Below are positions 34,901 through 61,500 of a DNA stretch of 64,000 nt, one piece after another. The translations under genes were made by a program, and so were the position numbers. This stretch comes from Owenia fusiformis. Taxonomy: Eukaryota > Annelida > Polychaeta > Sabellida > Oweniidae. Each line of letters begins with the position of its first letter. Position 1 is the stretch's first letter. The stretch spans positions 7,277,815 through 7,341,814 of the forward strand of contig CAIIXF020000003.1 of assembly GCA_903813345.2 (NCBI GenBank), read 5' to 3'. Below the pieces are notes generated by a model, which saw nothing but the letters and a program-made list of their open reading frames with translations, did no database searches and had not been told where the DNA came from.

Positions 34901-37900
34901 CAAGTGAAATATTTTTCACTATATTGCCCGCATAAATGATGTTACTAGTATTATTACCACCGTTAATAACCTGGGCTGAAAAAGCAAGAAAATCCTACCA
35001 TTAAACGATATCTAATTTTCTGGGGAAAATTGCCAGTCGTTAATTCCATTATTGACTGGTAATATGGCCCTTCACAATGATGTCATATACTGCTCAGGTC
35101 GATATAATAAAATAAATGCCTTCTAACCCTACTATCACACCAAACTAGTTCTCACTGCGTTCTCGAAAACGGGCTTCAACTGTATACGAACGGACTGGAC
35201 CTACTAAGAACCGTTTGGGATCTATTTACAAACTTCATCGAACGTACTCGAACGGGTAGGTCCTCTAGAACCTAGACAATGCTCAAAATGTTCTCGTGAT
35301 CGTCACGTTCTACAATTAGAACGAGCGACAACGTACTAACGATGAGCTGGACGTACTACGAACGGAACCGTCGTACTTCAGTCCTACTAGGGACCTTTTA
35401 ACAACGAGTTGAACTGTCTGCGGACGTGTTGAGAACAAGGTAGAACTAATTGCAAACGGGTTTAAACTGATTAAGAACGTATTTAACACTGCTTATGAAC
35501 GAGTTAGCAAAAATATAGCTATCACACCAAACAAGTTGCCACTGCGTTCTTCAAAACTGGTTTTAAACTGTGTGCGAACGGAATGAACGTAGCTGCAACT
35601 TTCTAAGGTCTATTTACGAACTTTATGAACGTTCTCAGACGGGAATGTGATTTTAGAATTTTGAATCGATTCAAAATTCGATGACGACCATACCGTTCTG
35701 TAATCAGGTCATGTTGACCTTCTAGACTAAGAGACGCGTTCTACGACATTGCACTCCGACGTGGTGCGACCTGAACGAACTGCGAACGAGATGGACGTAT
35801 TGAAGACTGTTTAAGAACGAAGAAGCTAATTATTTCAGACATATTTCCCGACCACAGCCAGATTGAGCCCGTTTGACGACGTTTTCGTAGGACTGGCAAG
35901 AACGGGTAAGAACTAGTTTGGTGTGATAGGGGGGTTAACTAGCACTAATACCCCTAGAACAGGCCCGGTAAGGTGGCAATAATACTCTTTCTTTTAAACA
36001 AGTCTTATATATTTTTGAGATTCTTAAACTTAGGTGTTTGTTTTATGATTAACTCTGAGCACTGTGAGTGGGAGCCCATGTTTGTTATGAAAATATATAC
36101 GTAATTTGTAAGTACTCACAACCCACTGGGAGTTCTCTTTCCAACCTTTTTTCACCATACGTTCCATCATCAAATGTAGCTCCAAAACACATTATTATAT
36201 TCCCATTTTCAACAACTACATAAAATGTCTTTTTATATCCCTCGCCATTTTGTATTCTCTGTTCAAAAAATAAAACAGAATTCAGAGGAATGTATTCAAT
36301 TTAGCCAAACCTCTTTTATTTTACATTAAACTATTCATAATTCATTGGATATTGGCTATGATTATCAGGATTATGAAATTGATTATTCTTGCCATCGTAA
36401 TTCCATGAAAATGATCAGTTGATTAACTTCAAAGAGCAGAGGCCGTCAATGGTTTTGGGTTCAAGAGCCTATCTCAATTAAACATCAGAAGGAAGTTTTC
36501 TTATAGGGATGCTTCAATGGCAAAATGTCAAGTAATTATGTATTAAACTTACAGCTTTAGTGTTATTTGCCCAATTAAAAAGATGATAACTGGCATCTCT
36601 AGTGTTATTTACCCAACTAAATAGATTAAAACTTACAGCTCTAGTGTCATCAGACAGAGCAAGTGAATAATGGACATCTACTCCGCGGTATTCCAGCCAG
36701 ACATATAGAACACAATCTCTTATTTCTATCTTTATGGTGGCATTCATAGGATTCTTTGCTTCTGGACTTTCATTGGTCACAACTGTTCCGTCAAAGTTGA
36801 CATCAACCATTCCAAATATTGTTCCCGTTTTGCCAAAGAAAATCTTCTGGGTGGCTGGGATTTCAGCAGGTTCAGGTGATAGGGTTTGAGGGCATACAAG
36901 CTGCCCATTTCCACCAGCTTCACAGTTGCCTTCACTCATGTATGTACCATCATCCAGTAATGGGTCAGGTGCTGAGAAGTTCCAATGTGCACAGGCACAT
37001 TCAGCTAAAAAGTTCAAGTCATCATCAATGAGTATAAACACAATTTTAAGTGACTTTAGTGTACTTGGTTTTTATGAGTAGAAAGATGAAAATACTCCAG
37101 AGTACAATATGTTAATCCAATATTTGTCCATGGGGTTTCAATTAGTCGAGTAGTTGAAAGCCCATGATATTTCCTATAACAACCCAGTACTATACTGTTC
37201 TGTATTGTATTGTATTGTATTGTACTGTACTGTATTGTACTTTACTGAACTGTACTGTACTGTACTGTACTGTACTGTACTGTACTGTACTGTACTGTAC
37301 TGTATTGTACTGTACTGTATTGAACTGCACTGTACTGTTACTACTCTCTTGGGCTTGAATGAATTTACTTATAACTGGGAATGATACTATAATTGGTCTC
37401 CTACATGTACAGCCTTGATTGAGTGTTCTTATGAATCTAATTGATAAAAATAACTTTTTAATGCAGCAAGGCACTCGTCTATATTAACTTTTTCTTCAAT
37501 GTTGCATTTCTTAAAAGTCTATAACTGGATTGTTTTTAAAAAAATTTCTTACTCTTTAGATGTTCACATGCGCAGTATTTCAGACTGAACGTGCCAGGCT
37601 CTGGGCAGTACCCATACTCATGCCAATCTGGTATGTAGTATTTTCTGTTAGTCATATCATATGCATCTTTTACATACAGAGGTCCATAACCCTTAGTATG
37701 GTCATCATATTTAATTCCTGTGAGACAGCATTCATTGTTGTCTGGATTAGCAACACATGGGACCATAGGGACATCAAATTCATTATCTGAAATGTATAAG
37801 AGACATCCACAGAGTTTTTACAAGGTTACATGTACCACTGGATTAGCAACACATGGGACCATAGGGACATCAAATTCATTATCTGAAATGTATAAGAGAC

Positions 37901-40900
37901 ATCCACAGAGTTTTTACAAGGTTACATGTACCACTGGACTAGCAACACATGGGACCATAGGGACATCAAATTCATTATCTGAAATGTATAAGAGACATCC
38001 ACAGAGTTTTTACAAGGTTACATGTACCACTGGATTAGCAACACATGGGACCATAGGGACATCAAATTCATTATCTGAAATGTATAAGAGACATCCACAG
38101 AGTTTTTACAAGGTTACATGTACCACTGGATTAGCAACACATGGGACCATAGGGACATCAAATTCATTATCTGAAATGTATAAGAGACATCCACAGAGTT
38201 TTTACAAGGTTACATGTACCACTGGATTAGCAACACATGGGACCATAGGGACATCAAATTCATTATCTGAAATGTATAAGAGACATCCACAGAGTTTTTA
38301 CAAGGTTACATGTACCACTGGATTAGCAACACATGGGACCATAGGGACATCAAATTCATTATCTGAAATGTATAAGAGACATCCGCAGAGTTTTACAAGG
38401 TTACATATACCACTGGATTAGCAACACATGGGACCATAGGGACATCAAATTCATTATCTGAAATGTATAAGAGACATCCACAGAGTTTTTACAAGGTTAC
38501 ATGTACCACTGGATTAGCAACACATGGGACCATAGGGACATCAAATTCATTATCTGAAATGTATAAGAGACATCCACAGAGTTTTAACAAGGTTACATGT
38601 ACCACTGGATTAGCAACACATGGGACCATAGGGACATCAAATTCATTATCTGAAATGTATAAGAGACATCCACAGAGTTTTTACAAGGTTACATGTACCA
38701 CTGGATTAGCAACACATGGGACCATAGGGACATCAAATTCATTATCTGAAATGTATAAGAGACATCCACAGAGTTTTTACAAGGTTACATGTACCACTGG
38801 ATTAGCAACACATGGGACCATAGGGACATCAAATTCATTATCTGAAATGTATAAGAGACATCCACAGAGTTTTAACAAGGTTACATGTACCACTGGATTA
38901 GCAACACATGGGACCATAGGGACATCAAATTCATTATCTGAAATGTATAAGAGACATCCACAGAGTTTTTACAAGGTTACATGTACCACTGGATTAGCAA
39001 CACATGGGACCATAGGGACATCAAATTCATTATCTGAAATGTATAAGAGACATCCACAGAGTTTTTACAAGGTTACATGTACCACTGGATTAGCAACACA
39101 TGGGACCATAGGGACATCAAATTCATTATCTGAAATGTATAAGTGACATCCACAGAGTTTTAACAAGGTTACTTGTACCACTGGATTAGCAACACATGGG
39201 ACCATAGGGACATCAAATTCATTATCTGAAATGTATAAGAGACATCCACAGAGTTTTTACAAGGTTACATGTACCACTGGATTAGCAACACATGGGACCA
39301 TAGGGACATCAAATTCATTATCTGAAATGTATAAGAGACATCCACAGAGTTTTTACAAGGTTACATGTACCACTGGATTAGCAACACATGGGACCATAGG
39401 GACATCAAATTCATTATCTGAAATGTATAAGAGACATCCACAGAGTTTTTACAAGGTTACATGTACCACTGGATTAGCAACACATGGGACCATAGGGACA
39501 TCAAATTCATTATCTGAAATGTATAAGAGACATCCACAGAGTTTTTACAAGGTTACATGTACCACTGGATTAGCAACACATGGGACCATAGGGACATCAA
39601 ATTCATTATCTGAAATGTATAAGAGACATCCACAGAGTTTTTACAAGGTTACATGTACCACTGGATTAGCAACACATGGGACCATAGGGACATCAAATTC
39701 ATTATCTGAAATGTATAAGAGACATCCACAGAGTTTTTACAAGGTTACATGTACCACTGGATTAGCAACACATGGGACCATAGGGACATCAAATTCATTA
39801 TCTGAAATGTATAAGAGACATCCACAGAGTTTTTACAAGGTTACATGTACCACTGGATTAGCAACACATGGGACCATAGGGACATCAAATTCATTATCTG
39901 AAATGTATAAGAGACATCCACAGAGTTTTTACAAGGTTACATGTACCACTGGATTAGCAACACATGGGACCATAGGGACATCAAATTCATTATCTGAAAT
40001 GTATAAGAGACATCCACAGAGTTTTACAAGGTTACATATACCACTGGATTAGCAACACATGGGACCATAGGGACATCAAATTCATTATCTGAAATGTATA
40101 AGAGACATCCACAGAGTTTTTACAAGGTTACATGTACCACTGGATTAGCAACACATGGGACCATAGGGACATCAAATTCATTATCTGAAATGTATAAGAG
40201 ACATCAACAGAGTTTTAACAAGGTTACATGTACCACTGGATTAGCAACACATGGGACCATAGGGACATCAAATTCATTATCTGAAATGTATAAGAGACAT
40301 CCACAGAGTCTTTACAAGGTTACATGTACCACTGGATTAGCAACACATGGGACCATAGGGACATCAAATTCATTATCTGAAATGTATAAGAGACATCCAC
40401 AGAGTTTTTACAAGGTTACATGTACCACTGGATTAGCAACACATGGGACCATAGGGACATCAAATTCATTATCTGAAATGTATAAGAGACATCCACAGAG
40501 TTTTAACAAGGTTACTTGTACCACTGGATTAGCAACACATGGGACCATAGGGACATCAAATTCATTATCTGAAATGTATAAGAGACATCCACAGAGTTTT
40601 TACAAGGTTACATGTACCACTGGATTAGCAACACATGGGACCATAGGGACATCAAATTCATTATCTGAAATGTATAAGAGACATCCACAGAGTTTTTACA
40701 AGGTTACATGTACCACTGGATTAGCAACACATGGGACCATAGGGACATCAAATTCATTATCTGAAATGTATAAGAGACATCCACAGAATTTTAACAAGGT
40801 TACTTGTACCACTGAATTAGCAACACATGGGACCATAGGGACATCAAATTCATTATCTGAAATGTATAAGAGACATCCACAGAATTTTAACAAGGTTACT

Positions 40901-43900
40901 TGTACCACGTTCAGAGTACAATCAGGAAAACCAGAAAAACACGTAATTGTTTTAACTGACCTGGAAAAAGTGCTCAAATGGTCCGGAAATTTAAGAATTT
41001 TAAGGAAGGTAAGGGAAAAGTCAGGGATGTTAAGCTAGTGATATTTTGAAAAAAATACATGAATGTGTATGGAAAATGGATGGGGTGCTAGGATTGAAAA
41101 AAGCGAGGCATATATATTACCACATAAGTAGTTCAAATCAGGTAGTGCTACCAGCTCCTTTATTAGACGTCCTAGAGATTTCATACCATGGACTATATAT
41201 ATACGAGGGGTGATCAATAAGTAATATTACCACATAAGTAGTTCAAATCAGGATTGCATGACCCAGGTGTCCAATAGGTGGCGCAAGCGCATAGCTCAGT
41301 GTTCCAAAAGAGTTCCTCATCGTCACAGAAACAACTTCTGTTGTAGGCTTTCTGTTTGTCTGCTTCACATTGTTGGTAGAAACAACAGGGGTCAGCTGGC
41401 TCTTGATAGAAACCAGTCTTACACCATTCTACAAAAAGGTAGTGGATGAACTTAAATACCTTTATATATTTTGAAGAGGCCATATATTCATCTGCCGTCT
41501 ATTTTTCTAGAAGCATATAATCTATCACACATCCAGAATTATATTTTTATCCAAAGTGTTATTTACCTTATAAATATAAACATAACCATGACAAAAAATA
41601 TATCAGATTTTGATAAACCATATCCACCAATAAAACAAACAATCTATATAATAATATTTAATATATTCAAAATCTAATAGAGAAATATCAATTATCTCTG
41701 TATAAAGCCCATCAATCCGTTTAAATAACCAGTCATTAGAGCAAGCCACATGATTCAACTTACCCTCATCTGAAACATCATGAGCTGAAAATGGAACAAA
41801 AAAGAACATTAAATGAAAAATTGTTCAGTGTTAAGAAATAAATAAAGAATGTCATGTTGGACAAATGAAGATATTTCTCAATTCTCTGTGGATGATTTTT
41901 TCAAATATTTCCATTTTATTCTACTTGTTTGTATTTATATTATATTTGCAAATTTCTTTTAACAGTGGAGACGATAACCCCATTTAACGTGTAACACGGA
42001 GATTGCCATTTTGCACGTCAATTGACGTGAATCACGCCAATAAGCATAATGTCCATTGTAATTCATAATTTAAACACCAGGTTAATTAGAAGACCTAGTG
42101 TTTAATATATATACAATCTAAGTAATATATATTTTATAGTACATATACTTTGGTAAACATTAATGATATATTAAATCCCAGGGAAGTATTTCATTCCAAA
42201 ATTGTGGAGAAAAATGCCGTTCAATCTTGTGAATTTTCTGTCAATGTTACGAACCAATGAAGTCACCACCGAACTTGCATTCTTGGAAAGTCTAAATCGA
42301 TCGATGGAACGCTTTTTATTGCATTTTCTTCAAGTAATTAATCTAATCTAGCACTTGTATGCAGGAATTCGCGATCCTATGTGGGAATTTTGCGCTAGAA
42401 CTAATCAAAGTTACCTCTCACGAATCCTAGAAAAACGCCATATTGGAATTACTAATACTCCTTCAATTGTCTAGATATCGTCTTTCCGACGGGTTTTATG
42501 ACAAAATTGGTACTGACCCAATGTTATTTTAATCTCTTAACACAACGTGAGCCCCAATTCCGAGAAAAGACCACTGGAAATCACTAAAATGGGGTCTACT
42601 TTCCCTCTTCTTTTTGACCGGAAGTGTTTTCCTGACCTCGGTGTGTTGCCGATTTTTTCGTTTTTTTCTGGCTGGATTTAGTTTTAAACCTTCTTTACAA
42701 TGATCTAATGATTACCTTAAATGAATTTTGAACAATTTAAATTCCTATCCTTATAATATCAGAATGTATTAGTTTTCTTTCGATCATTTGTTTACTTCCG
42801 GTTTGCTGTTGAATAAATATTTCGAGTAAACATTGACGTAAGCACATGATAATAGTTGTTAGTTCAAAATGCAACCCGGACAATAGCAAATGTTTATGAT
42901 TATAACTATTACATACGATGCAGATCATGATTTACCCACTAGTTTCCCAGTTTATAACTGCCTGTTGTCCTGCCGATAATATGTGAAACTTTTACAAGAT
43001 AATAGTTTGCACGTCAATTGCCGTGCAAAATATTGCACGTCACTTGACGGACATGACGGCAATTGCCGTTATTATCTATTGACATGCGCACTTATGCGTC
43101 ATAATTTCACGTCAATTGTCGTGCAACATGGCAATTGCCGTACTTCACGTTAAATGGGGTTATCGTCTCCACTGTTTAAAAGCATTAGTGCCAGTTATGG
43201 TCTTAATAATTAGAGTACATACTCTTAATGTGCTGTATGTATGCTTAATATGCTGTACCACGATTTCAGAGTGCAATTTGAGGTTGTACTGTAGGTCTAT
43301 GTGATCATTTTATACATGGATAACACTAGTTTACAAAGAAATTCAGAGACAATTATGTCTCACTCATCATCACAGGCCAATTTGAGCATTTAATAGATAT
43401 GCATGTACCCTGCGTGCAGAGTCTAGTTAAACTACTGAAGACGAAGCTCTCTTTTAAGAGGTGAAGTCAAACGAATGCAAAGGGTAATATTCATGTTAAA
43501 CATCAGTTTACTAGTACACTCTACGATACACATTTGGTGTTCATGAGCAACCCATTTGGCTTAATAGTAATGATTGTGTTATTTGTTTTTATTTGACTGT
43601 TCCTTATTAATGGTTTATTGGATGACTCTTAGATGCTAATCAGGTAATTTCAAAAATATATTAAACAATTCAATTAGACAAACAGAGTATCTTATGCATT
43701 TCTAGGAGTTAGGTATAGTAGAGTGTAGTATATGAATGCAAGGCAATAATATATCTTACTCATCATCATGGGGTATGGATCCCCACAATATGCAACACTG
43801 CATAGGCAGAAGAGGGCCACGAATTTGAACATCTGAAACATAACAATATAGTAGAGTGTAGTATATGGACATGTATAAGCAATAATATATCTTACTCATC

Positions 43901-52569: not shown

Positions 52570-55500
52570 CTAGGATTCTACTCCTAAAGTCTTCAGTAGC
52601 TCAATAGACTCTTCATGTGCCTGGAAAACAAAGTGAAATCAATCATTCATGTTTAATTTATCAATATGTGTGAATGGCTGAGACATTAAAAATTAAACAG
52701 AGATTAAGCTTACAATACAGTTTTCTAAAATCATGAAAAATTCAAAAATAGAGATGTGAAACCCAAACTTATGCATGAAGCAAATATTACATTACTTGAC
52801 TACACTTACATACATGTATATACATCAATGTTACATGCATAATACTAATTGCCTACTTGCCAAAGACAGTTAAAAATTGAAAAGATGATTTCAAAATTAA
52901 GTTTGCAATTTTTGGGCCAGCCTTTGTAAGTCTGATTATTGAGGATGGAAACCAATTTTTAGCTCGGAAATTTAAAATATTATCTGGATATAACTGTAAA
53001 ACACATTAAATGCAAGGACATCTTTAATTCATGTATATTTGTGAGAGTATTAAATCACAAATTCACACCATGAAAACTGTATATCTTTAACAAGGGATCT
53101 TGAATGAAGGGAACAAATGTACAAATATTTGAAAATTGCTCCTGTGAATTCAGTCATTGTTTTATAGTAGTTGATATTTTATGTACCTTTTTATCATCAG
53201 ATGTTCTGACTGGATAATCTCTAGCACGGATTAAATATTCTTTTGCTTTTTGGTTGTTTTTCATACGCTGATACGTCTTGCCAATCATCATCAGGTTCAT
53301 ACTGTAGAAGTTTGGTTCAACTGGAAATTAATGATTAATTTAACTTTTTTCCAGTACAGTGAAGGTTGTATATATCCGAACACCTTTAATCTATACTCCT
53401 GTCATTGTGAACACTTTTTCTAGGCCCGTTATCTTCTGTTGACTCGAAATGTGAACTCTTTTGTTGGCCCACTGGTGCTCGGATTTATACGCAAAATAGA
53501 TTTAAATGATGACTAATTGGTGCAAAAATGTTCAACAAACATTTCATACATGCAAGGATTTTCATTATTAGAATATCAAGAGTCGGGCAAAATGAAGGAC
53601 AACAGGCAAAAATTACAATTCTCATTATAATTTTGATTAAAATAACTTAAGAAAATTGCATGTTGTTAATTTCAGGTAACCCCTGTTTCAGACAAGATGA
53701 TTGTTAAATATATGAACTTACTTGTTTCAGCTTTGAGTAAATATTCTAAAGCCTAAAAATAGAATAAACTTTATTATAATACAAGCTAATTTAATGTAAT
53801 TTGCAAGTTGGAATATATGCGATTATTTCAATAAATGTGATTATTTCATTGTGATTGTTTCATTAAATGTGATTGTTTCATTAAATGTGATCATTTAATT
53901 GAATGTGATCATTTCATTGAGATTATTTCACTGTGATCATTTTATTGAATGTGGTCATTTCAATGAATGTGATCATTTCAATGAATGTGATCATTTCATT
54001 GTGATTATTTCACTGATCATTTCATTGAATGTGACCATTTCGTTGAATGTGGTCATTTCATTGAATGTGGTCATTTCATTGAATGTGATCATTTCAATGA
54101 ATGTGATCATTTCGTTGTGATTATTTCACTGATCATTTCATTGAATGTGACCATTTCGTTGAATGTGGTCATTTCATTGAATGTGATCATTTCATTGTGA
54201 TTATTTCACTGATCATTTCATTGAATGTGATCATTTCATTAAATGTGGTCATTCCATTGAATGTGGTCATTTCATTGAATGTGGTCATTTCATTGAATGT
54301 GATCATTTCATTGAATGTGGTCATTTCATTGAATGTGATAATTTCATTGAATGTGATCATTTCAATGAATGTGATCATTTCATTGAATGTGATCATTTCA
54401 ATGAATGTGATCATTTCATTGTGATTATTTCACTGATCATTTCATTGAATGTGACCATTTCGTTGAATGTGATCATTTCATTGAATGTGATCATTTCATT
54501 GAATGTGATCATTTCATTGAATGTGATCATTTAATTGAAAGAGATCATTGCATTGAATGTGACCATTTCATTGAATGTGATCATTTCATTGAATGTGATC
54601 ATTTCATTGAATTTGATCATTTCATTGACTGTGATCATTTCATTGAATGTGGTCATTTCATTTGCACTGTCTACATTTTAAATAAAATGCACAATCTTAA
54701 GATGGTGACAGTTAATACCAATTAAGTTACCTCTTCATATGTGGAGGTAGGAGGTGACGTGAAAATAACAGATGCAATTTTCCGCTGATACCACGCTAGG
54801 TCAGCAAACAGGAAACACCTATAAACAATACATAAAGCACATTTAATAATCATTATCATGATGAAAGAGATCTATTTAATTCTGGATTTATTTACTCATT
54901 AGCATTAGTCTAACAATGCTTATATGTTATTAAACACAGTGTGGAGAACTGCAATATTTCTAAACAATAATGCAGTATGTGTACATAGCAAGACAGCTTT
55001 TTGGACTTCAACACTGTTATTTAGTGTATGAGGTTAATATGCAAGACGACAATGTACATGTACAGGGTGGTCCAAAAAAAATTGGAACATTTGTTAATTG
55101 AACACAAAACCTTTATTTTTCGTCTGAAATGCACCAAAATTTTACTGAGCATAGTTCAGTCACTTATCTGTCTGATGTTAAGTTTATAGGTGCAAGCCAC
55201 AAAGTTAATGCATTAAACTAGACAATGTTTGATATGACCCCCTTTCCTCAAATATACACTTGTCAATTTTACCGCTACTTTTTCAAGTTTTCTTTATTTC
55301 AACGCTTTAATGAACATGTTGATTGCTATACACATTTTATAAAATCATATTTAGTTGACAAGAGAGAGGTATTAACATCTATGGTTCACTAGAAAACTAT
55401 TGTGTTATTGTTAACTTAAGAATATCCCAAATCATTATTTTTATTTAAGAGTAGGAAAGAAAGAACATGTAAGAGGTGAGTGATTGCATCACCCATACAG

Positions 55501-58500
55501 CTACTAAAGTGACAAAATCATTGTTTTCACTTTTCAGTAAAGGGGAAACTGACCAGTTATTTCCACGGCTTTATTCAAGATCACCTCTAAGCATATATAA
55601 TATATCATTTGTGTTCTGGGAAACTCCTTTATGATATTGATATACATATATTGATATATTCAATGAATATTATCCATATTAGAACAAGAAAGGGGGAGGG
55701 GGCTCATTTACCAGTCAAAACAGACTGCCCTGGCCTCTTTCTTGAGGATATTCAATAAGTTAGACACCTAACAATAGCCATCAAAATATGCTTGATACCC
55801 ATCAATTTGGGTAAAAAAAGTTGAATGTGTTCACATATTTGATCTTCCAAGGCAAACATATAAGTAGTTTGTTCAACTGAATTTTTTAATCAAAATGGCT
55901 TGGACAAAATCAAATGAACAGCAAGGTGAATGAATCATTTCAAAACTGAGTCCCAGGCTTCAACATGTAATTCAGGAATTGAGGGGTCATATCAAACATT
56001 GTCTAGTTTAATGCATTAACTTTGTTGTTTGCACCCATAAACTTTACATGAGATAAATAAGTGACTGAACTATGCTCAGTTAAAGTTTGGTGCATTTTAG
56101 AAGAAAAATAAAGTTTTTTTGTTCAATTATCAAATGTTCCAATTTTTTTTGGACCACCCTGTATAATTAAGCTCATTGTATAAAGTAATATAAGACTGAC
56201 ATCTAATTCTGATGTCACCCTTAAGGTAGTTCTATGTGTTGAGAATTTTCATTTAATTTTCATGATTGCAATTTCCATGGGAAATATTTTTGAAATTTTA
56301 TGTGGACATTAACACATGATAATAGAATTCATAGTTCAAAACATAAATATTTTGTTAAAATTATCTGAAATGACATTTCCACAAATTATTAATTCTGAAT
56401 TTTTTCTACAAGTGCGGAACTACCTTAATGAGTTATAATAGCATAGCGGGAGATGCTTCCTCTCAAGTAGTCTAATAATCCTCTTATTTTAATGCCATGC
56501 CCTTGGGTATAGACACATATTCTAGAGCGTCATAACTTACCAATATCCTATGGAATGTACAGATGTAGCATCTTTAGGGTTTAGTTCAATGGCTTTCTGC
56601 AACAAACAAATTGAATTCAATAACATTGGCTGATGCCAAGCCCAAAGATAATAAATTTCGGTGAATATGTTCTGTAATTTAATGAATTTTTCAAATCACC
56701 AAATCTGCTAAATAAAGCGATGGCACAAATAGCAGTATTAGCACTTGAATGTATCAATAATGAACAGAAGGGAAATAAGTCTAACATTTTGAAAAATGTG
56801 TTGAAATGAGGTCCTAATCCCTATTTTTTCAGCATCAGACAGAAAAATTTATTATCCAAGGGATTTTTAATGAAGGAAAACATATCACTTTGATGATATA
56901 TGTCGTATGGTGAGGAAGTTATCATGGTAAAATAGACTGACTGTCTAAAATCATTTGCCATACCATACCTGGTCTTTTAAGACCCTTTGGTACGGATGCT
57001 ATATTAAGTTATTTACCTACCATGAAATGTTCTTTGACTTGGAATGCATTTGAGATTCTCTGTTTTGTACCCTCATATTCTCCAGTGTAATCAAGCAGAA
57101 CTGCAAACCACTGAAATATACATAAATGTGACATAAAGTCACATAAACTGAAATATAGATAATAGACTGAAATATACATGAATAAACTGAAATATAGATA
57201 ATAAACTGAAATATACATGAATAAACTGAAATATAGATAATGTTGTTTGTGTGTATAGATGTTGAAACTAGGTTTAAAATCAATATTAAAGAACCTAAGA
57301 CAAGTTAGATGTATCCATAATGTATAAATAACCATCATTCAGTACCTTATGACATGTTTAATATAAGTACTTTATGAAAATGTTCTATACAAGTAACATA
57401 TGACATTATAAGTACCTATGACAGTATGACATATTCACTATAAGTACCTTATGACAGTATGACATATTCACTATAAGTACCTTATAACAGTATGACATAT
57501 TCACTGTAAGTACCTTATGACATATTCACGATAAGTACCTTATGACAGTATGACATATTCACTATAAGTACCTTATGACAGTATGACATATTCACTATAA
57601 GTACCTTATGACAGTATGACATATTCACTATAAGTACCTTATGACAGTATGACATATTCACTATAAGTACCTTATGACAGTATGACATATTCACTATAAG
57701 TACCTTATGACAGTATGACATATTCACTATAAGTACCTTATGACAGTATGACATATTCACTATAAGTACCTTATGACAGTATGACATATTCACTATAAGT
57801 ACATTATGACAGTATGACATATTCACTATAAGTACCTTAAAGACAGTATGGCATATTCACTATAAGTACCTTATGACAATATGACATATTCACTGTAAGT
57901 ACATTATGACAGTATGACATATTCACTGTAAGTACCTTATGACATATTCACTATAAGTACCTTATGACAGTATGACATATTCACTATAAGTACCTTATGA
58001 CAGTATGACATATTCACTATAAGTACCTTATGACAGTATGACATATTCACTATAAGTACCTTATGACAGTATGACATATTCACTATAAGTACCTTATGAC
58101 AGTATGACATATTCACTATAAGTACCTTATGACAGTATGACATATTCACTATAAGTACCTTATGACAGTATGACATATTCACTATAAGTACCTTATGACA
58201 GTATGACATATTCACTATAAGTACCTTATGACAGTATGACATATTCACTATAAGTACATTATGACAGTATGACATATTCACTATAAGTACCTTATGACAA
58301 TATGACATATTCACGATAATTACCTTATGACAGTATGACATATTCACTATAAGTACCTCATGACAATATGACATATTCACTATAAGTACCTTATGACAGT
58401 ATGACATATTCACTATAAGTACCTTATGACAGTATGACATATTCACTATAAGTACCTTATGACAGTATGACATATTCACTATAAGTACCTTATGACAGTA

Positions 58501-61500
58501 TGACATATTCACTATAAGTACATTATGACAGTATGACATATTCACTTTGAGTACCTTATGACAGTATGACATATTCACTATAAGTACCTTATGCCAGTAT
58601 GACATATTCACTATAAGTACCTTATGACAGTATGACATATTCACTATAAGTACCTTATGACAGGAGGGATTTTTATCGTTTAACTCCAGCGATCTTTTTG
58701 CATAATCAAATGCCTCATAATAAAGCGCCTTCTTTTCTTCACCACCAATAACCTTTCCTTTGTCAACTGCAGCGCGGGCGAGTCGCCACAGAATTTCATC
58801 ATTGGAACAGTCCTTATATTTTATTAGTAACTCGTACAATTGCATTGTGTGATGTTGCACATACAGTTCATCTGCTTGTTGGATTGCCTTTTCTTCTTCA
58901 GAGAGAATACTGTTTTCTACAACATTTACAATAAACAATAAAATTAATACAAGACTTTTGTAATTCTTTTGGTAACAGAAAATCTATACAATAAATGCAG
59001 GGGTTTCATTAGCAGCAGGCAACAGGCGATTTTCACCGGTTGTTTTCACAAAATGGCCTGTTGTTTTTAGGGAGTTTTCAATGTTAAATTTATGATTTCC
59101 ATTAAATATTTCATCCAAGAATGTTACATGTATTACAAATGAGAACCTGCAAAAATCATAAAACTGAATTCCAGACTGAAATAATTGCGTTGCTGAAATT
59201 GTATATACACCTTCAAATAGTGATCAATGGATGAATATTGTGCATACTGTACTATATAGCTCTTTGTAGGATCCACAGCCTGTAATATATCTTGGAATAC
59301 AAGCATTAGTAGTTGAAAAGGGAATCTGATCAATCAATATGACTTTTAAGCTACTTACTGAGCATATAATTGCAATCACAGTTTGTGCAGCATGTTTAAA
59401 TGATAACAACAGCATGTTCTAAGAAAACAACACAGAATTTTAATTTTCCTCTCAACATGGCATTTATACCTGGGGCACTAATTACCAATTCATAATGAAA
59501 CAAACCATGAGCCTATTGTACAATAAAACCTGTCTTATACCTGTCTCTACCTTTTATGTTCACTTGACTATTAAATCATTCATAGTGAAATTCAAAGTAT
59601 TTAATAAAAGTGTTTTGTTTAAGCATATGATATTTTATGAGAAGTATTCAGATTAAAGAATAAAGGTTAAAGATTAAAGGTTTATTTTTCAAATATGACT
59701 GATTGCTGAACAATTGGGAGTTGTTAATATTTCAAGGTTTTGGCTTACACAGTGACCCTATGTAATCAACCTGGTCTCTCTGTATATGGACTGGTGGATC
59801 CAGGGGGGGGGGACACGGGGCCTGGCCCTCACAAAAAATTTAAGGCCCAAAATAATTTTCTTTAAGTTTGAAGAATTCTTCTTCAAATCTGTAACATATG
59901 TTACAGATTTCTAAGTACTACAGCTGATTAACTTTTGGGTCTCGTTTTTCCATCAGCCATTACAACAAGTTTTCATTTTCTTTACAGAACATTTGAAATT
60001 TCAATTTTATCTGAAGTTATGCAAGAAAAAATTGAAAATAAATAAGACTATAGATATTAAATCAAATCCTCTTTTGCTAAACCACTTTATCTTTTACAGG
60101 ATATATATTTGTTCATCCATCTCATTTTTGTCAAATTCCTTTCATTTTCATTTTGTTTATACGTCATTTACTGAATATGAAATTCTTGGTCAACTGTACC
60201 TACATGTAAAAGAAATTCAAGGCATATTTTCTTTCTCCAAAGAACATGCTTTCGGGGCTTTCATACATACATAGCTTCATCAACTATTAACAGGAGGAGG
60301 GGTGTTTTAACTTACCATTCTGAATCTCTTGTGCCTTAGGTTTTTCCTCATTTGATCCCCACCCCCAGGCCTTAACAACAAACATAGATGGTACCCACGC
60401 TATACATAGTCGACCCACAGGCTTCTTTAACCATCCCCACACCTAATAAAAAATGTAGAGAATATCATTCATAAACCTTATGATACAAATTCAATGTAAA
60501 ACCTGTGTTTTCACATAACATCTACACGTCCTGCAATGCATTGACAAAGTACATGTATATGGGAACTAAAAACAGAAAAATAATCCTTTCATAAACACAG
60601 GCCTGTCAACTCTCCCGCAATTTGCGTATTTGTCACTCATTTGCTGAAGAATCTGAACCACGCCAGTTTTTTTACCTGGTAATTGTCAAGCAAAAATATT
60701 TCTGTAGAAATTTTTGTTACACAGCTGACAAGATGAGCCTGCGATGTTGTAATAAGCAGATTGTATAGCACAACAAGAGTTGTAATACATGTAAAGTTTG
60801 GAACATGAATAAATGACAGGTGGATTTTCTATCACCATTCCCTAACCATGGTCATCTGAAAGCCCATGCATGTAAATTGCAATATTGTCTAGATACACAT
60901 GCCTTAAAATTTGTATATTTTACATTTTGTATAATCTCATCCACTGATATATGGCCTCTTGAAAATTCTCTTGTTTTAACATGGGAAATCCTCACTTCAG
61001 CAAATCCACTAGTTCAACGTCGTTAAACTCAATAACGGCGTTATTTATTATTAAGAATTTTCTTGGGGCCATTATTGAGTTTAACCTCTTTACTATTCTT
61101 TCCATTGATGCAAGTTTTGGATCCACCGAAACCATTTTTCCGCGATAACATGCAACTGATACTTGACAACAATATAAAAACACATAACATCAAGCGATTC
61201 AACACAATATTATTGTATTAAATGGTCATTTATACAAGTAAAATGAGGTTAAACTTACCAATCTCTAAAATGACATTTCCGCATGTCCTTCATTGTGTCT
61301 GTTCGTCCCGGGTTAAAATTTAAACTATTGAAACGAAATTGTTGTCAAATAGATTGATAATTATCACGCGATTACTCGGGATAAAATAGCCATTTTTGAG
61401 GATAGCAGGTATCTTTGATTGATTTATATAGCGCTTGTATACACACAAAATCGTTATTAATTGCAAACCTACTGTTCGTTGATGCAGTGTCGCAATGACG

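Follow-up and report, generated by a model that had tools for sequence, protein, structure and literature searches.

The donor border of intron 3 in a minus-strand RMDN gene (regulator of microtubule dynamics) is repeated in a 38-unit tandem array, which we interpret, with a probability of about 85%, as a "mirage", a most likely neutral border minisatellite of the kind named in amphioxus: splicing would use the first donor, and the array would be removed as intron. As in that known kind, of which it is a real example, the repeat unit spans the exon–intron border, and both ends of the one intron are arrayed. Arrays of repeated donors also adjoin exons elsewhere in the genome, and in three of those genes the following exon is compatible with the first donor.

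The RMDN gene and the two arrays of intron 3

The gene lies in the window (the whole stretch of DNA analysed, 64,000 nucleotides), where its joined exons 3–6, numbered as in an earlier sequence-only reading, match the Pfam family RMD1-3 (E 3e-24) and PDB entry 7cc7, human RMDN3 (E 1.7e-24). The junction of exons 3 and 4 (CHK|WFAVL) lies within conserved sequence, as CHKWFAVL aligns with CHLWYAVL of 7cc7. Exon 3, whose 5' edge is probably set by an acceptor at 58917, matches only itself in the 498-Mb assembly by a sequence search that may miss repeats. The features around intron 3 are as follows:

58654..58916, minus strand: exon 3, 263 nt, ending ..SCHK in phase 0; from frame, Pfam RMD1-3 and PDB 7cc7
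57416..58653, minus strand: donor array, 38 units when cut at the donor, consensus 33 bp, beginning right after the end of exon 3 (58654)
57936..58653, minus strand: units 1–22, donors in phase with exon 3; units 1–21 are of 33 bp and open
57936..57960, minus strand: unit 22, 25 bp, in which the exon frame reads a stop
57341..57415, minus strand: degenerate units on the intron side of the array, including the 25-bp-like GTACTTATATTAAACATGTCATAAG; Tandem Repeats Finder period 26
57111..57241, minus strand: acceptor side, six TATATTTCAG|T sites, namely the real site at 57110 and five extra ones
57021..57110, minus strand: exon 4 (WFAVLLDYTGEYEG...KEHFM), donor ATG|GTAGGT at 57020; PDB 7cc7 alignment
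56541..56596, minus strand: exon 5 (KAIELNPKDATSVHSIGYW), donor at 56540; PDB 7cc7 alignment
54731..54818, minus strand: exon 6 (CFLFADLAWYQRKIASVIFTSPPTSTYEE), probable start, donor at 54730; PDB 7cc7 alignment

The tandem array that the sequence-only reading placed at the end of exon 3 is real: Tandem Repeats Finder delimits it at 57407–58663, with a period of 33, 38.6 copies and 94% matches. Each full unit joins 23 nt of intron start to 10 nt of exon end and restates the border CTGTCATAAG|GTACTT. The sharing of the exon end had been recognized before, at nine bases instead of the ten that the units contain. Likewise, the "dozens of nearly identical donors" described earlier are near-identical across the 38 units but not equal in strength, with T at position −1 before units 5, 13, 24 and 27. 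Unit length is 33 bp in units 1–21, 25 bp in units 22 and 35, 34 bp in unit 25 and 32 bp in unit 38, and the units make up 80% of the 1543-bp intron.

Minisatellites are often mis-sized and the array comes from a single assembly, so that misassembly or a wrong copy number has to be weighed. However, the 38 units, of which 25 are identical to GTACTTATAGTGAATATGTCATACTGTCATAAG, comprise 13 distinct sequences in a non-trivial order, the degenerate units lie at one edge, the sequence is contiguous and similar arrays are present at other loci, all of which make an assembly artefact barely credible. A dispersed satellite was rejected as the source because a 42-base unit pattern, allowed up to three mismatches, found 34 matches in the 498-Mb assembly, all within the array (such a search may miss repeats). 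The array peptide also matched the Pfam family SERTA above its cut-off (E 1.3e-8, 34.9 bits), a match that we attribute to chance in a repetitive protein since no single stretch passed alone.

The earlier reading overlooked a second array at the 3' end of the same intron. The five extra acceptors lie 37, 56, 76, 95 and 115 nt upstream of exon 4, in a tandem array at 57143–57241 (Tandem Repeats Finder, period 19/39), and the real site falls just outside it. The sequence ATGTATATTTCAG|T is common to the real acceptor at 57110 and two of the five extra sites, a sharing of 14 nt with just one exonic. Intron 3 thus has both its 5' and its 3' border affected, the 3' case being marginal. None of the five distances is a multiple of 3, so each extra acceptor would shift the frame when paired with any in-phase donor, and on these grounds we rejected the idea that the acceptor side is a further coding switch. 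A further repeat, of about 46 copies of an 18-bp unit, occupies positions 53817–54662 of the intron after exon 6, and a 96-bp unit is present in 33 copies (98% matches) elsewhere in the window, at 37742–40908 (both by Tandem Repeats Finder).

Repeated donors at other exon ends

Similar arrays were sought throughout the genome as three exact donor words within ~100 bp, with matches within a few kb grouped and the exon side of each group examined over 2.8 kb (1.6 kb for the last six groups). The words CAGGTAAGT and AAGGTAAGT together gave 18 arrays, all inspected, and AGGTGAGT and AGGTATGT matched 259 and 461 times, with at least 11 and at least 6 arrays, respectively, all those among the matches listed being inspected. 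Matches to the donor words and to their reversed-pattern controls (73/56, 41/53, 259/115 and 461/137, many per array) were uneven, and we claim no enrichment. Among the 35 further arrays inspected, 10 adjoin or overlap exons with a database match:

B56, CRIPT and Il2rg-like exons: above Pfam cut-offs
Kringle and P450 exons: below Pfam cut-offs, E 0.00026 and 0.0029
NCS-1 exon: PDB, E 2e-10
Tudor exon: database match
RAI16-like exon: database match, real donor not pinned
Copper ATPase exon: PDB, E 0.00011
Liprin-alpha exon: PDB, E 0.00041

Ten more arrays adjoin probable exons, recognized as an open frame that reaches the array and has no database match (L004, L005, L012, L015, L024, L025, L032, L034, L057 and L059). 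Flank inspection gave no convincing exon at the other 15 (L002, L003, L007, L009, L011, L013, L017, L019, L026, L027, L028, L029, L030, L033 and L055). Hence, arrays of this kind occur in several genes of the genome, as expected of mirages. The gene at L015 presumably resembles DIP2, an assignment that Pfam and PDB searches did not confirm; the 5' border of its downstream exon is present twice as well. L027, L029 and L033 have nearly the same flanks and an 18-bp GTGAGT array, and are seemingly copies of a single dispersed element, at which an exon was not seen.

The 20 exon-adjoining arrays have periods (Tandem Repeats Finder, L004 to L059) of 17, 42, 44, 42, 34, 38, 44, 38, 31, 28, 25, 33, 38, 41, 35, 25, 23, 21, 23 and 30. 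Five of these 20 are divisible by 3, when about seven would be expected by chance. The distance from the first donor to the second is divisible by 3 in eight of the 20, with L004, L018 and L024 starting with 27, 27 and 24; for the 10 arrays with database-matched exons, the counts are one (period) and two (first spacing).

For NCS-1, B56 and CRIPT, the next exon was found downstream of the array (in CRIPT also by Pfam). When joined to the first donor, it yields a continuous conserved protein (NCS-1 ...FDANK/DGYITFREF, B56 ...SSLYR/ISKDHW and CRIPT ...HYCQ/GCAYKK), and no other donor tested in these genes does so. The later donors are offset by 44 (NCS-1), 34 (B56) and 31 nt (CRIPT). Continued into the array, the exon frame reaches a stop close to the second donor in NCS-1 and already inside unit 1 in B56 and CRIPT. 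These gene models suggest that the first donor is used in all three genes.

Tandem arrays are common enough to expect border cases. Counting arrays with at least three copies and a period of 10–60, we found 4 in 64 kb (eight random 8-kb pieces), 12 in the window and 12 in 58 kb of flanks at the inspected loci. Assuming 150,000–200,000 donors, the random density predicts 309–412 donor-spanning arrays genome-wide and the flank density 1024–1366. With such a predicted base rate, dozens of border arrays are unsurprising and need no special mechanism. The units contain just 2–7 intron bases in six of the 20 arrays (exon + intron bases: NCS-1 39+5, L008 37+5, L015 31+7, L025 31+2, B56 28+6 and CRIPT 26+5). 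RMDN (10+23) and the remaining arrays have at least 10 intron bases per unit. L032 and L056 are exceptions, in that their first strong donor may not belong to the exon itself, and L012 is also ambiguous. It is unlikely, in our estimate, that border minisatellites are a genome-wide class in a spiralian and arise by a process tied to the splice junction, with breaks as if at the site of U1 pairing and a spliceosome that picks the first of identical competing donors.

Donor choice in RMDN

A score for the RMDN donors was obtained with a human 5' splice site matrix. By this matrix, AAG|GTACTT scores 0.35 bits, placing it among the best 7% of the window's GTs, compared with 4.1, 4.3 and 3.7 bits for the donors that end exons 4, 5 and 6. 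The highest of all GTs in exon 3 and intron 3 is array donor 11 (AAG|GTAATT, 58323) at 2.8 bits on the same matrix. The weakness of the RMDN donors leaves the first one without evident advantage. It could also point to a splicing buffer, in which many weak donors jointly increase U1 occupancy and so ensure that the intron is removed. This proposal of the sequence-only reading found no support. Arrays elsewhere repeat donors strong enough to work unaided, donors past unit 22 lie after an in-frame stop, and the extra acceptors shift the frame; we regard the buffer as highly improbable.

The same reading also proposed a length-variable coding switch. Several donors used in proportion would then give proteins with n x 11 extra residues (VLIVNMSYCHK) ahead of WFAVL, where a TPR segment begins. 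The claims about frame on which it was built all hold: 33 is divisible by 3, about 21 units are open in frame and the next exon is in phase. Human IFI6, in which downstream repeats serve as donors in the text covered (PMC4526556), provides a precedent. Furthermore, the four units of odd length are all farther from the exon than unit 21 (P = 0.032), which hints weakly that the frame is constrained close to the exon. However, the other arrays have periods and first spacings divisible by 3 about as often as chance predicts, so a 33-bp unit is no evidence for such a switch. The inserted residues would also interrupt the conserved sequence at the exon 3/4 junction. The absence of a stop across units 1–21 was rejected as a mark of selection, as it has P = 0.54 under ten random substitutions. 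Over the 34 units that are 33 bp long, with those of odd length left out, the −1 G of the donor takes 4 of 17 substitutions and is among the two most-hit positions. The donors of the array are not conserved, and nothing suggests that they are protected as a set. Taken together, we consider the coding switch quite improbable. The anatomy given by the sequence-only reading stands, and the harmless neutral array that it also offered is the best of its three proposals.

For the neutral border minisatellite that we favor, the likely origin is a tandem duplication across the exon 3/intron 3 border, after which the array may have grown by slippage or unequal exchange. Such an array would be tolerated because the exon edge retains its complete end and a donor after each duplication. 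The spliceosome would join the exon-proximal donor at 58653 to the acceptor at 57110, and the repeats would leave with the intron. Donors 2 and 3 might be used at low level to add 11 or 22 residues, and by analogy with IFI6, minor isoforms longer by 33 or 66 nt are possible.

Relation to known border repeats

In amphioxus, the text covered of two papers describes mirages as minisatellite-like repeats over exon–intron borders of Adh3 and of the globins BflGb6 and BflGb9, affecting 5' and 3' borders, with AG/GT signals in many units and an Adh3 unit of 10–72 bp; regular splicing is reported there as undisturbed (PMC3087553, PMC3902484). Similar repeats are described in lancelet PGBD5, with Adh and troponin C cited alongside in the part covered (PMC3902484). 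The RMDN array resembles these cases in its border-spanning tandem unit, in the involvement of both borders and in the AG/GT signals of many units, but differs in its apparently spiralian genome, its 38 copies, its weak donors and a frame open for 21 units. Among the matches listed from the open-access literature, to which our search was directed, none used the name "mirage" for repeats in anything but lancelets.

The human IFI6 (6-16) minisatellite, cited as the work of Turri et al. (1995), shares with RMDN the location of repeat units at an exon end, and its units act as donors that add unit multiples to the message. The covered text describes two downstream units used in this way, giving three mRNA species (PMC4526556). 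IFI6 differs in its 12-bp unit and its reported mRNA variants, the RMDN array being known from genomic sequence. The Rogers model, as described in the portion covered of PMC3087553, creates introns by tandem duplication of AG/GT sequences. Duplicated borders likewise give spare splice sites in RMDN, but what is seen here is the enlargement of an existing intron, not a new one. Earthworm metallothionein has intron minisatellites, and the text covered mentions no splice-site arrays (PMC12783039).

The arrays reported here extend border minisatellites beyond lancelets to an apparently spiralian genome, where many loci have them. At each, a single exon is confronted with many near-identical 5' splice sites, a natural experiment that bears on donor choice and intron growth. 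Contig 1 of the genome carries a Hox cluster in which KLTGP follows a homeodomain and Lox2/Lox4-like genes are present. We take KLTGP after the homeodomain to be the signature of Lox5, and Lox5 and Lox2/Lox4 presumably point to a spiralian, not a lancelet. On contig 262 (14791–17163), a single open frame of 1717 aa has four homeodomain matches.
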